64,000 nt of DNA from Thermosipho sp. (in: thermotogales) (GTDB lineage Bacteria > Thermotogota > Thermotogae > Thermotogales > Fervidobacteriaceae), in NCBI GenBank assembly GCA_017656345.1, contig JACDNZ010000002.1, positions 1 through 64,000 of the forward strand. Reading direction: 5' to 3'. A model generated the notes under the pieces. The model saw only the letters and a list, made by a program, of their open reading frames with translations, was not told the origin of the DNA and ran no database searches. The position numbers were made by a program, and so were the translations under genes. This document shows positions 50,197 to 55,047 of the stretch, in pieces; positions within the stretch are counted from its first letter, which is position 1, and each line of letters begins with the position of its first letter.

Positions 50197-51954
50197 ATGA
50201 TGGTAAAAATCTTTATAAACGACAAAGAATATGAGGTTCCAGAAAACATTACGGTACTTGAGGCAGCACAAAAAGCAGGATTAAACATTCCAACACTTTG
50301 TCATCATCCTGAACTCGAACCAATTGGAGCTTGTAGAGTTTGTGTTGTTGAAATTGAAGGTGCTAGAACACTCCAACCAGCTTGTACAACAAAAGTTTTT
50401 GATGGAATGAAAATCAGAACAAACTCTGAAAGAGTAGAGCAAGCAATAAGGTTCAATCTTTCCCTTATAATGGCTAATCACCCAAATGATTGTATGTATT
50501 GTGAAGCTGATCAAAGATGTGAATTGAAAAAACTTGTTCACATTTATGATGTAAAACCACTTTTTCCACCTTCAGATCTTTCAGATGTTTTTGATGACAG
50601 CAGTCCTTCAATTCAAAGAGATCTTTCCAGATGTATTAAATGTCAAAGATGCGTAAGAGTTTGTAGTGAAATTCAAGGAATGAACATATACTCAATGATC
50701 GAAAGAGGATATAAAACTATCCCACAAACTGCATTTGATGTACCAGTCTATGAAACAAATTGTATTTCATGTGGTCAATGTGCTAACCTATGTCCAGTAG
50801 GTGCAATATACGAAGTTCCTGATTGGAAAAAGGTTCTAAAACTTCTTGATAAAAAAGAAAAAATACTTGTTGCTCAAACAGCACCTGCAGTAAGAGTAGC
50901 ACTTGGTGAAGAATTTGGAATGGAACCTGGATCAGTTAGCACTGGAAAAATGGTAGCAGCTTTAAGAAAATTAGGATTTGATTATGTATTTGATACCAAC
51001 TTTGCAGCTGACTTAACCATAATGGAAGAAGGTACTGAATTAATTCAAAGAATCAAAGAAGGCGGACCATTCCCAATGTTCACAAGTTGTTGCCCAGGAT
51101 GGATTAATTTAATGGAAAAAGAATACCCAGAATTTATCAAAAATGTTTCCAGTGCAAAATCCCCACAACAGATGATGAGTTCAGTTGTCAAAACTTACTT
51201 TGCTAAAAAAATTGGGGTTGACCCTGAAGATATAATTATCGTTTCTATCATGCCATGTACTGCAAAGAAAGATGAAATTACAAGACCGCAACAAAAAATA
51301 AAATTAGAAGACGGAAGAGAAATAAGGACAACAGATTATGTTATCACAACAAGAGAACTTGCAAAACTAATTAAATTTAAAGAAATAAACTTCTCAGGAC
51401 TTGCAGATGAAAATTATGACAGTCCTCTTGGAACTTCCACAGGTGCAGCTGTAATTTTCGGTGTAACTGGCGGTGTTATGGAAGCAGCATTGAGAACTGC
51501 ATACGAAATCATTACCGAGGAAAAACTTCCAAAACTTGAATTCACTGCTGTAAGAGGTCTGGAAGGAATAAGAGAAGCTGAAATTGACATAAAGGGCCAA
51601 AAATTTAAAGTAGCAATCGCACACGGAACAGCAAGCGTAAGAAAACTTCTTGACGACATTAGAGATGGCAAAAGATATTATGACTTCATTGAAATAATGG
51701 CATGTCTTGGTGGATGTATTGGTGGTGGAGGACAACCTAAGAGTCTTGATCCAGATATACTCAAAAAGAGAGCAAATGCAATCTACTCCATCGATGAAAG
51801 AAGTACACTTAGAAGATCTCACGAAAACCCCGATGTTCAAAAACTTTATGCAGAATTTCTTGAACATCCAAACAGTCATCTTGCTCACGAGCTATTACAT
51901 ACATATTACACTGACAGATCAAAGAACAAAAATAGTGTTTTAAGCAATCAATAA
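50197..51954 (+). CDS. [FeFe]-hydrogenase catalytic subunit (HydA/HndD-like)
   Basis: N-terminal 2Fe-2S (CHHPELEPIGACRVC), HPNDCMYCEADQRCELKKL, two 4Fe-4S motifs, H-cluster motifs TSCCPGW, MPCTAKKDE, MACLGGCIGGGGQP; start at ATG 50197 or 50200 behind gaggaggg. Confidence 0.95.
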   Translation: MMVKIFINDKEYEVPENITVLEAAQKAGLNIPTLCHHPELEPIGACRVCVVEIEGARTLQPACTTKVFDGMKIRTNSERVEQAIRFNLSLIMANHPNDCMYCEADQRCELKKLVHIYDVKPLFPPSDLSDVFDDSSPSIQRDLSRCIKCQRCVRVCSEIQGMNIYSMIERGYKTIPQTAFDVPVYETNCISCGQCANLCPVGAIYEVPDWKKVLKLLDKKEKILVAQTAPAVRVALGEEFGMEPGSVSTGKMVAALRKLGFDYVFDTNFAADLTIMEEGTELIQRIKEGGPFPMFTSCCPGWINLMEKEYPEFIKNVSSAKSPQQMMSSVVKTYFAKKIGVDPEDIIIVSIMPCTAKKDEITRPQQKIKLEDGREIRTTDYVITTRELAKLIKFKEINFSGLADENYDSPLGTSTGAAVIFGVTGGVMEAALRTAYEIITEEKLPKLEFTAVRGLEGIREAEIDIKGQKFKVAIAHGTASVRKLLDDIRDGKRYYDFIEIMACLGGCIGGGGQPKSLDPDILKKRANAIYSIDERSTLRRSHENPDVQKLYAEFLEHPNSHLAHELLHTYYTDRSKNKNSVLSNQ

Positions 51955-51986
51955 AGAGCAACTCCAAAAAAATTAAATATGATTTT

Positions 51987-52112
51987 CCTTTCTGAGGTGA
52001 AGGGAATATCCTGACACCAAGGAAAGGGGGCAAAACAGATATAAATTTTAAATGTACTCTTGTATTATTTTCCCCCTTCCTTGGTGTAAAAAAGGAAGGG
52101 GGATTTTATATG
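51987..52112 (+). promoter_or_regulatory. Candidate cis-regulatory RNA (riboswitch-like) controlling the TM1266-like/hydG/hydE genes
   Basis: Nested 5' hairpin CCTT(tctga)GGTG(aa)GGGA/TCCT(ga)CACC-AAGG; competing long pairing 52014-52035 with 52068-52087; SD-sequestering hairpin cccccttcctt (52072-52082)/aaggaaggggg (52092-52102) just before ATG 52110. Confidence 0.6.
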
Positions 52113-52352
52113 GAGAGGTATTACACAATTGACATAATAATTAATAACAGAAATGATGCATATGATAAAGTTAATAGTTTACTTCACCAATACGCAAAAT
52201 ATATAAAACTTAGAGTTGGATATCCTATGGATAAGGAAAATATGGCTGTAATATTTATAATCTTTAAAGCAACCAATGATTTGTTGGGCAGCTTTACAGG
52301 AAAACTTGGACAAATTAAAAGTGTAAAGGTAAAAAGTATACCTATAACATAA
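52110..52352 (+). CDS. TM1266-like putative iron-only hydrogenase system regulator (ACT/NikR-C-like fold)
   Basis: 80 aa; YYTIDIIINNRNDAYDKVNSLLHQYAKYIKLRVGYPMDKENMAVIFIIFKATNDLLGSFTGKLGQIKSVKVKSIPI; adjacent to hydG/hydE. Confidence 0.8.
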   Translation: MERYYTIDIIINNRNDAYDKVNSLLHQYAKYIKLRVGYPMDKENMAVIFIIFKATNDLLGSFTGKLGQIKSVKVKSIPIT

Positions 52353-52366
52353 AAGGGAGTGAAAAC

Positions 52367-53782
52367 ATGTATGTATTCACAAAAGAAAAAGATAAAGAGA
52401 AAACTTTTATAAATGAAGAAATCATAAAAAAGACACTTGAAGAAACAGCAAACCCTGATAGCAAACAAATTCGAGAAATTTTACAAAAATCTCTTAATAA
52501 GCAAAGGCTGGAACCCAAAGAAGTAGCAACTCTTCTTAATGCAAGCAGCAAAGAGCAATGGGAAGAAATTTTTGAGGCAGCTAGAACTTTAAAGGAAAAA
52601 GTATACGGGAATAGAATAGTTCTATTTGCACCATTATACATTGGGAACGAATGTATCAATGATTGTGAATATTGTGGATTCAGAACTTCAAACAAATTGG
52701 TAATTAGAAAAACCCTCTCGCTTGAAGAACTCAAAAAAGAAGTTGAAACATTAGTTTCAAAAGGACATAAAAGATTAATTGTTGTATACGGAGAACATCC
52801 AAAATATTCTCCAGAATTTATTTCAAAAACAATTGACATAATTTATAATACAAAACTTGGTAACGGAGAAATAAGAAGGGTAAATGTAAATGCTGCCCCT
52901 CAAACAATAGAAGGTTACAAAATAATCAAAGAAGTAGGAATAGGTACTTTTCAAATTTTTCAGGAAACTTATCATTATCCAACCTATAAAAAACTACATC
53001 CAAGAGGGCCAAAATCCAACTTTGCATGGAGATTATATGGCTTAGACAGAGCAATGTTAGCTGGTATTGATGATGTTGGAATTGGTGCACTCTTTGGTTT
53101 ATACCACTGGAAATTTGAAGTAATGGGACTTATATACCATACAATTCATCTTGAAGAAAGATTTGGTGTAGGTCCACATACCATATCTTTCCCAAGGATT
53201 GAACCTGCTGTCGGTACTCCTATCGCTGAAAGACCACCTTATCTCGTAAGTGATGAAAACTTCAAAAAACTTGTAGCAGTCTTGAGATTAGCAGTTCCAT
53301 ATACAGGACTAATTTTAACTGCAAGGGAACTTGCAGACTTGAGAAGAGAAGTATTAAAGCTTGGAGTTTCACAAATTGATGCAGGTTCAAGCATAGGTGT
53401 AGGTTCGTATTCAGAAACAGATCCTGAAGTAATTAAAAAGAGCCAATTTATTCTTGGAGATACAAGAACATTGGACGAGGTAATATATGAACTACTTAAG
53501 GAAAATTATATTCCATCCTTCTGTACAGCATGTTACCGTGCGGGAAGAACTGGAGAACACTTTATGGAATTCGCAATTCCTGGATTTGTAAAAAGATTTT
53601 GTACTCCAAATGCTTTGTTTACTTTAAACGAATACCTGAACGATTACGCATCACCTAAAACTAAAACATTAGGAAAAGAAGTTATAAATAAAGAAGTTGA
53701 AAAAATCACAGACAAACAAAAAGATATAATTATTCAAGGTCTTAAAAGAATTGATATGGGGGAAAGAGATGTTAGATTTTAA
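52367..53782 (+). CDS. hydG: [FeFe]-hydrogenase maturase HydG (radical SAM tyrosine lyase)
   Basis: Radical SAM CINDCEYCGFR; C-terminal PSFCTACYRAGRTGEHFMEFAIPGFVKRFCTPNA. Confidence 0.95.
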   Translation: MYVFTKEKDKEKTFINEEIIKKTLEETANPDSKQIREILQKSLNKQRLEPKEVATLLNASSKEQWEEIFEAARTLKEKVYGNRIVLFAPLYIGNECINDCEYCGFRTSNKLVIRKTLSLEELKKEVETLVSKGHKRLIVVYGEHPKYSPEFISKTIDIIYNTKLGNGEIRRVNVNAAPQTIEGYKIIKEVGIGTFQIFQETYHYPTYKKLHPRGPKSNFAWRLYGLDRAMLAGIDDVGIGALFGLYHWKFEVMGLIYHTIHLEERFGVGPHTISFPRIEPAVGTPIAERPPYLVSDENFKKLVAVLRLAVPYTGLILTARELADLRREVLKLGVSQIDAGSSIGVGSYSETDPEVIKKSQFILGDTRTLDEVIYELLKENYIPSFCTACYRAGRTGEHFMEFAIPGFVKRFCTPNALFTLNEYLNDYASPKTKTLGKEVINKEVEKITDKQKDIIIQGLKRIDMGERDVRF

Positions 53783-54029
53783 GGAAACAAAACATCTTTT
53801 AAAAACAATTGCCCAAAATTATAACTGCAAAATCTGGATTTGTGAAAAAATAGGCCGTAGAATCTCCTATATTGAAGGTCTAAAAGCTGGTAATGAATAC
53901 TATCTTCCACCAGAAATTCTTTATGAAGATGAGAAATATGTTATCTTTACGGAAAATTTAAGCAAAAAGGATGAAAAACTTTTTAAATTAATACATGAGG
54001 TGATTGAAAATGTCAGAAATAATCAATAA
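53769..54029 (+). CDS. Small conserved hypothetical protein between hydG and hydE (TM1268-like position)
   Basis: Start at ATG 53769 behind gggggaaagag; overlaps hydG and hydE ends; no recognised domain. Confidence 0.75.
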   Translation: MLDFKETKHLLKTIAQNYNCKIWICEKIGRRISYIEGLKAGNEYYLPPEILYEDEKYVIFTENLSKKDEKLFKLIHEVIENVRNNQ

Positions 54030-55047
54030 ACTCGAACATAAAAGAGATGCAGTAACACTTGAAGATCTTGAATATATTTTATCAACCAACAAATTTGACA
54101 ACCAAATATTTGAACTTGCCGACAAAATAAGAAAAAAATATGTCGGTGAAGAAGTACACATCAGAGCAATTATAGAATTTTCAAATTATTGTAAAATGGA
54201 TTGTTTATATTGTGGATTAAGAAGTGAAAATAAAAACTTAAAAAGATACAGAATGACCCCCCAGGAAATTTTGGACCGTGCTAAATTAATCGCCGAAAAA
54301 GAAATTAAAACGGTGGTACTACAATCTGGTGAAGATCCATATTACACAACTGAAATTATTGAATATCTGATAAGTGAAATTAAAAAATTAGACATGGCTG
54401 TAACGCTAAGTATTGGTGAAAGAAGCTTTGAAGAATATAAAATCTGGAAAGAAGCTGGGGCTGACAGGTATTTAATGAGACATGAAACCGCTGATGAACA
54501 ACTGTATGATAAATTACACCCCAGTGATACATTTGAAAATAGAAAAAGACATTTACTAACTCTTAAAAAATTGGGATATGAGATAGGCGCAGGTTGTATG
54601 GTAGGATTACCAGGTCAAGGAGCTCTTGAACTTGCAAAAGATTTAATCTTTTTAAGAGACATTGATTCAGATATGATCGGAATTGGTCCTTTTATTCCAA
54701 ATCCTCACACACCATTGAAAAATGAAAAAGGTGGTGATTTAAACACAACACTAAAAGTTATAGCTCTTGCAAGAATATTAGTACCAACAGCAAATATACC
54801 AGCTACTACCGCTATGGGAAGTATTCATCCTTTTGGAAGACAAATGGCTTTGAAATGCGGAGCAAATGTAATTATGCCAAATTTAACTCCCAATCCTTAC
54901 AGACCAAACTATACACTTTATCCAAATAAAATATGTCTTTTTGAAGCAGATACGGCATGTATAAACTGTGTGAAAGGTATGATTAAGGGTTTAAATAGAG
55001 TTGTAGGAAAAAGCTATGGTTTCAGAGTAAAACTTGCTTCTATCTGA
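54010..55047 (+). CDS. hydE: [FeFe]-hydrogenase maturase HydE (radical SAM)
   Basis: EFSNYCKMDCLYCGLRSENKNLKRYRM, VLQSGEDPYYT, GIGPFIPNPHTPL. Confidence 0.94.
   Translation: MSEIINKLEHKRDAVTLEDLEYILSTNKFDNQIFELADKIRKKYVGEEVHIRAIIEFSNYCKMDCLYCGLRSENKNLKRYRMTPQEILDRAKLIAEKEIKTVVLQSGEDPYYTTEIIEYLISEIKKLDMAVTLSIGERSFEEYKIWKEAGADRYLMRHETADEQLYDKLHPSDTFENRKRHLLTLKKLGYEIGAGCMVGLPGQGALELAKDLIFLRDIDSDMIGIGPFIPNPHTPLKNEKGGDLNTTLKVIALARILVPTANIPATTAMGSIHPFGRQMALKCGANVIMPNLTPNPYRPNYTLYPNKICLFEADTACINCVKGMIKGLNRVVGKSYGFRVKLASI

Follow-up and report, generated by a model that had tools for sequence, protein, structure and literature searches.

The stretch of DNA analysed, referred to below as the window, is 64,000 nucleotides of a Thermosipho sp. 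contig in which the gene of an [FeFe]-hydrogenase is followed on the forward strand by a TM1266-family gene and by the genes of two radical-SAM maturases of the H-cluster (Table 1). The TM1266-family product matches a solved homologue (2NZC, E 7e-24); proteins of this family have previously been described as putative iron-only hydrogenase system regulators only, and no assignment of a mechanism was found for them in the open-access literature. The small ORF between hydG and hydE gave no match in Pfam and NCBIfam scans of either the window copy or the copy at another locus (L145, 3143-3433). An ORF of about 90 aa adjoining hydG is kept in Thermotogota, with the pattern KxWIAExxGRRWSYxxG (it is the second ORF of L080, L082, L087 and L096), and a Neomarinimicrobiota genome has an ORF of similar size. 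Relatives carry TATAAT or TACAAT at a position comparable to that of the candidate -10 box of the window.

Table 1. Features of the hydA-hydE region and of the TM1266 leader within the window
Feature	Position	Strand	Evidence
hydA, NADH-dependent [FeFe]-hydrogenase group A6, upstream neighbour	50197..51954	+	NCBIfam NF040763, 863 bits, above cut-off
Candidate -10 box TATGAT (unproven), directly 5' of hairpin A	51978..51983	+	sequence only
Sensor hairpin A	51985..52029	+	fold; covariation; R1 match 66.4 bits, E 2e-14
UGA, outer tandem G-A loop, opposite AAG 52019-52021; near-invariant	51993..51995	+	alignments A1, A2, A4
UGA, inner tandem G-A loop, opposite AAG 52000-52002; near-invariant	52012..52014	+	alignments A1, A2, A4
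Antiterminator B, 5' strand, overlapping 3' strand of A	52014..52035	+	fold; locus-specific complementarity in 55/56 leaders
Antiterminator B, 3' strand, overlapping 5' arm of terminator C	52068..52087	+	fold; leader comparison
Terminator C; 3' arm AAGGAAGGGGG doubles as Shine-Dalgarno	52071..52109	+	fold; terminator scan
TM1266-family putative regulator, 80 aa, pI 9.6	52110..52352	+	TIGR03959 99.7 bits; PF21699
hydG, H-cluster radical-SAM maturase	52367..53782	+	TIGR03955 532 bits
Small conserved ORF between hydG and hydE	53751..54029	+	similar ORFs beside hydG in relatives
hydE, H-cluster radical-SAM maturase	54010..55047	+	TIGR03956 366 bits

A preliminary description of this DNA had proposed three overlapping pairings (A, B and C) in the intergenic region upstream of the TM1266 gene. 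Its sequence, coordinates and pairings were borne out when the sequence was rechecked, and the region (51955-52112) folds much more stably than its dinucleotide shuffles (z -3.6, 0/200 as good). Hairpin A (-22.3 kcal/mol at 37 C for 51984-52030) is made of three helices, P1 (51985-51993/52021-52029), P2 (4 bp, 51996-51999/52015-52018) and P3 (52002-52005/52009-52012). The P2 and P3 pairs are those originally drawn, but the CCTT/AAGG pairing placed at the base of the hairpin is in the wrong register, as both the fold and the relatives have AA 52019-52020 facing GA 51994-51995 rather than paired with CCTT. Two 2x2 tandem G-A/A-A loops, with a U-G pair outside each, are arranged in mirror symmetry about P2; GA is opposed by AA in the window and by GA in many relatives (UGA/RA). 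The sequence of P2 varies with its pairing kept (GGCU/GGCC, GAUC/GAUC and others) while these loops stay constant, and the terminal loop is variable among relatives. The two-fold near-symmetry of the hairpin suits a dimeric binder.

Pairings A and C are compatible with each other and each is exclusive with B, a relationship already pointed out in the preliminary description and with which the fold energies (at 37 C, -31.8 kcal/mol for B, 52012-52089, and -22.7 kcal/mol for C, 52066-52112) and the leader complementarity agree. C consists of a 12-bp stem (52071-52082/52092-52103) and a U tract (52104-52109, UUUUAU) directly before ATG 52110, and so has the shape of an intrinsic terminator, one that a simple terminator scan overlooked because its loop is longer than 8 nt. 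The 3' arm of the same stem does contain the Shine-Dalgarno sequence of ATG 52110, as had been claimed, and by its anatomy C is predicted both to terminate transcription and to mask translation initiation in the window. Of the translational switch put forward earlier, the direction can therefore be retained (A stable gives C and the OFF state) but not its purely translational nature, C being also an intrinsic terminator by its form. Both parts of an intrinsic-terminator attenuator are found here, namely a GC-rich hairpin with a U tract and an antiterminator excluding the sensor hairpin as well as the terminator. Equilibrium calculations for the window leader favour B at the stage where C has no more than its 5' arm, and A together with C in the complete leader, suggesting that during transcription B would form once that arm has emerged.

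The same anatomy recurs in other leaders. By a strict scan, 60/91 leaders, that of the window included, have a terminator with a T tract 3' of the hairpin, and the 5' arm of most of these terminators can pair with the 3' strand of A. The complementarity underlying B is locus-specific, with a score of 31.0 against the leader's own downstream sequence, 21.8 against other loci and 14.6 against shuffled sequence. Comparison of the leaders thus shows, at the level of predicted pairing, a conserved competition of A with B and of B with the terminator or Shine-Dalgarno-masking hairpin C.

Most loci of the initial TM1266 set have hairpin A upstream of TM1266. Two-sided changes are seen in 10/16 pairs among 33 sequences and in 12/16 pairs among 83 sequences (score 0.358 versus 0.199 for shuffled alignments and at most 0.204 for slid-partner controls), so that the covariation in relatives suggested as a check in the preliminary description is indeed there. 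A covariance model of the hairpin (R1), searched over 103 Thermotogota genomes, found 75 copies in 63 of them, the genome of the window having one. Nearly all inspected copies (73/74) are upstream of [FeFe]-hydrogenase genes: the next gene is TM1266 in about 52 cases, hydF-aspA in 10, hydG in 7 (with TM1266 elsewhere), hydA in 3 (with TM1266 after it) and hydE in 1. The sole exception inspected in Thermotogota (L085 501-548, genome G066) precedes an ABC transporter gene of NMT1/SsuA-like type. TM1266 is present in all motif-positive Thermotogota genomes (63/63), and five genomes with hydG and no TM1266 (L181-L184, i.e. G094-G097, plus G098) are without the motif; these five belong to one genus, of which a sixth member (L185, G099) has both TM1266 and motif, and could therefore reflect a single loss event. 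A second, distant TM1266-like protein occurs in most genomes searched for TM1266 (matches of about 30 bits, e.g. G000:C17:235-453).

Published RNA-seq data for T. neapolitana under CO2 show TM1266, hydG and hydE up 5.98, 6.39 and 7.52-fold and hydF 1.28-fold (PMC7039931). Control by the leader agrees with this, a regulon that changes uniformly does not; with hydF nearly flat while TM1266-hydG-hydE rises, not all genes of the regulon need respond alike.

What lies 3' of the sensor differs between leaders. Among the Thermotogota relatives, C most often has the canonical form of an intrinsic terminator, T tract included, which makes transcription attenuation the main output there; in some leaders (L016, L098, L112) this terminator is well upstream of a separate Shine-Dalgarno sequence. 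In seven others (L006, L081, L083, L084, L088, L101, L103) the Shine-Dalgarno of the gene is within the 3' strand of A, and in five (L080, L082, L085, L093, L096) the 3' strand of A is the Shine-Dalgarno of a short leader ORF of 13-37 codons, which runs into or through a hairpin with a T tract further downstream (the ORFs were found by computer, and the downstream hairpins of L080, L082 and L085 were judged by eye). Mesoaciditogales-type leaders are among those with one or other of these two designs. The leader-ORF form is apparently a translation-coupled version of the A-type attenuator, and with all three outputs (terminator, Shine-Dalgarno-sequestering hairpin, leader ORF crossing a terminator) stabilization of A would switch the operon off.

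The element is not confined to Thermotogota. A strict DNA pattern for the hairpin, run on 85,462 species genomes, matched 46 stretches; those that are convincing outside Thermotogota come from one Neomarinimicrobiota MAG (order motif-TM1266-hydE-hydG-ORF-hydF) and one Ignavibacteriales MAG (motif-TM1266). Matches in Butyrivibrio, Devosia, Mycobacterium and others were rejected, being tandem repeats or coding sequence with low or misplaced model scores. TM1266 occurs in 20/148 Neomarinimicrobiota genomes and model R2 places the motif upstream of 19 of these 20 genes, the twentieth locus ending at a contig edge; every credible match in this phylum has TM1266 in the same genome. Among 297 Ignavibacteria/Bacteroidota genomes all motif matches (6/6) precede TM1266, also where no hyd genes lie next to it. 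At L121 and L197-L201, where read, the place of hyd genes after TM1266 is taken by the gene of a CarboxypepD_reg-type outer-membrane protein, and the outer-membrane gene scanned after TM1266 at L335 (9459-11759) encodes a TonB heme/siderophore-type receptor. One match (L178, in G143), with neither TM1266 nor a hyd gene nearby, was taken as due to chance. Two extra copies in genome G132 (L171, L179) lack a hyd gene within the sequence read, and one of them is about 2 kb from a copy that precedes TM1266.

In Clostridia the hairpin is diverged, and R2 finds few copies. Those of this class are overlooked by R1 and R2 because the sequence of P2 is free, and a further model, R3, was made to cover them; in making it, and only there, the clostridial hairpin loops were trimmed to one common length. 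When just the architecture was scanned for (UGA-P2-RA ... UGA-P2'-RA, score at least 30), it was present in 36% of 70 clostridial TM1266 leaders versus 0.3% of shuffles, many of these 70 leaders having no recognizable hairpin. R3 matched 21 of 243 clostridial genomes, and the ten inspected matches outside its training set are all directly upstream of TM1266 (3), hydG (5), hydE (1) or a NuoE/NuoF-like hydrogenase operon (1). Since the clostridial training rows were picked by pairing, covariation in R3 is partly circular, and the independent tests for this class are the shuffle comparison and the non-training genome matches. Within the 64-kb window R3 gives a single convincing site, the TM1266 leader (33 bits; next best 15.9). 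Four clostridial loci (L236, L238, L249, L257) have a tandem pair of hairpins upstream of TM1266. Going by these matches, the element is found before H-cluster assembly genes in at least four phyla.

The preliminary description recognized no known riboswitch core in the leader, and cmscan agrees: no Rfam 15 family reaches its gathering score anywhere in the window, and in 12 relatives only one unrelated tRNA does. Weak matches to mir-2985, MIR1509, PyrR and ncr952 are stem-only alignments below gathering score; that to the PyrR binding site (RF00515; 27.8 bits versus a gathering score of 54), the closest among cis-regulatory families, involves mainly generic stems, and the genes downstream are hyd rather than pyr. 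The open-access main texts searched on TM1266, 2NZC and hyd leader RNA do not describe this RNA, and neither of two Breaker-laboratory ncRNA surveys mentions hydrogenase or hydG/hydF in its main text.

Several known systems are nonetheless similar in design. The PyrR attenuator of pyr operons also combines an anti-antiterminator hairpin with an antiterminator and a terminator, the bound hairpin meaning OFF, has several regulon copies in some genomes and, if TM1266 is the reader here, likewise has the regulator gene first under control, but its core sequence and downstream genes are different. The RAT hairpins of LicT/SacY/BglG have two internal loops, which could be recognized by a dimeric protein. 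RAT hairpins are antiterminators that overlap the terminator directly and turn expression on when bound, whereas the sensor of the TM1266 leader is upstream of the terminator with a predicted OFF state when bound, a different architecture. Transcriptional OFF riboswitches share the conserved sensor hairpin and the terminator/antiterminator or Shine-Dalgarno-masking output, but the core here is a single pseudo-symmetric hairpin and no Rfam riboswitch model matches at gathering score. Autogenous ribosomal-protein leaders resemble it in having a hairpin before the gene of the presumed binder, and in Shine-Dalgarno occlusion in some clades; the L10_leader match is 15.4 bits versus a gathering score of 44, and it is hydrogenase assembly, not ribosomes, that is controlled here. 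The hairpin A leader is best regarded as a new family of cis-regulatory RNA with three kinds of output, PyrR-like in its working and outside that family.

As to what reads the hairpin, the motif precedes the TM1266 gene in Thermotogota, Neomarinimicrobiota, Ignavibacteria/Bacteroidota and Clostridia, and, given this tracking across phyla, an attenuator read by a protein is no less likely than a small-molecule riboswitch. TM1266 proteins of Thermotogota are basic (pI 8.0-9.9), domain scans (Pfam/NCBIfam) find no recognized DNA-binding domain in TM1266, and its fold is putatively ACT-like. The co-occurrence of motif and gene, the small basic protein and the symmetry of the hairpin together favour autogenous RNA binding by a putative TM1266 repressor, and the seven Thermotogota genomes with the motif on hydG and an unlinked TM1266 are as expected if the factor acts in trans. 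A TM1266 dimer, the product of the gene that comes first in most such operons, would bind and stabilize hairpin A, which would block B, let C form and turn the operon off; with no factor bound, B would form once the 5' arm of C has been transcribed, and the operon would be on. How tightly TM1266 binds would probably depend on a signal that reports hydrogenase assembly or redox state. We put at roughly 0.55 the probability that the H-cluster assembly regulon is under a conserved attenuator whose reader, TM1266, is an RNA-binding repressor acting autogenously. The wider proposal that TM1266 is a small RNA-binding protein reading a pseudo-symmetric tandem-GA hairpin in regulon-wide attenuation in several phyla, hence a new protein-RNA pair, stands at about even odds. 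Counting against TM1266 as reader are four clostridial genomes that have the motif and no detectable TM1266 (G273, G388, G390, G451); all four may be incomplete assemblies, and in G273 and G388 the hyd contig stops shortly after the hyd gene.

These four genomes would be readily explained if A were instead a metabolite or metal riboswitch, binding a small ligand (an H-cluster assembly product, a cofactor, a metal or a redox metabolite) and so triggering termination, with TM1266 merely one gene of the regulon. The aptamer-like, covarying core and the expression platforms are both conserved, as such a riboswitch would have them, and transport genes under or beside the motif (the TonB receptor in Ignavibacteriales, the ABC transporter at L085) could import the ligand. 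Yet the core is one short near-symmetric hairpin with variable P2 and terminal loop, simpler than most aptamers, and the motif keeps to the TM1266 gene from phylum to phylum, also where no hyd genes adjoin; a riboswitch seems a possible but less likely explanation. A host factor or an RNA-binding protein other than TM1266 would also account for motif copies in TM1266-less genomes, but no other gene is seen to track the motif, the most constant neighbour of which is TM1266, and such a reader is improbable. Less plausible by far is a ligand-free attenuator or RNA thermometer governed by folding kinetics or temperature: the energetic competition among A, B and C could suffice by itself, and the computed stability of A and C does fall with temperature, but a thermometer has no need for invariant UGA/RA loops while the sequence of P2 drifts, and the hairpin is not limited to thermophiles but is found in mesophiles too. 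That the element is a plain terminator of the upstream hydA gene, without regulatory role, as the terminator shape of C and its place between hydA and TM1266 might suggest, is contradicted by the comparative data and next to inconceivable, since the upstream genes are diverse, the downstream set is constant and A is conserved even without C.

Little is understood of the way in which bacteria match production of the H-cluster machinery to demand, and this gives the shared leader element its interest. The 45-nt hairpin RNA is directly assayable against TM1266 and H-cluster metabolites, and a leader of hydrogenase genes may offer a handle for tuning biological hydrogen production. The element shared by hydG, hydE, hydF-aspA, hydA and TM1266 defines, by sequence, a regulon in at least four phyla. 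A role in H-cluster assembly has been proposed for aspartate ammonia-lyase (PMC11736057), and the placing of hydF and aspA under this common element supports that proposal.
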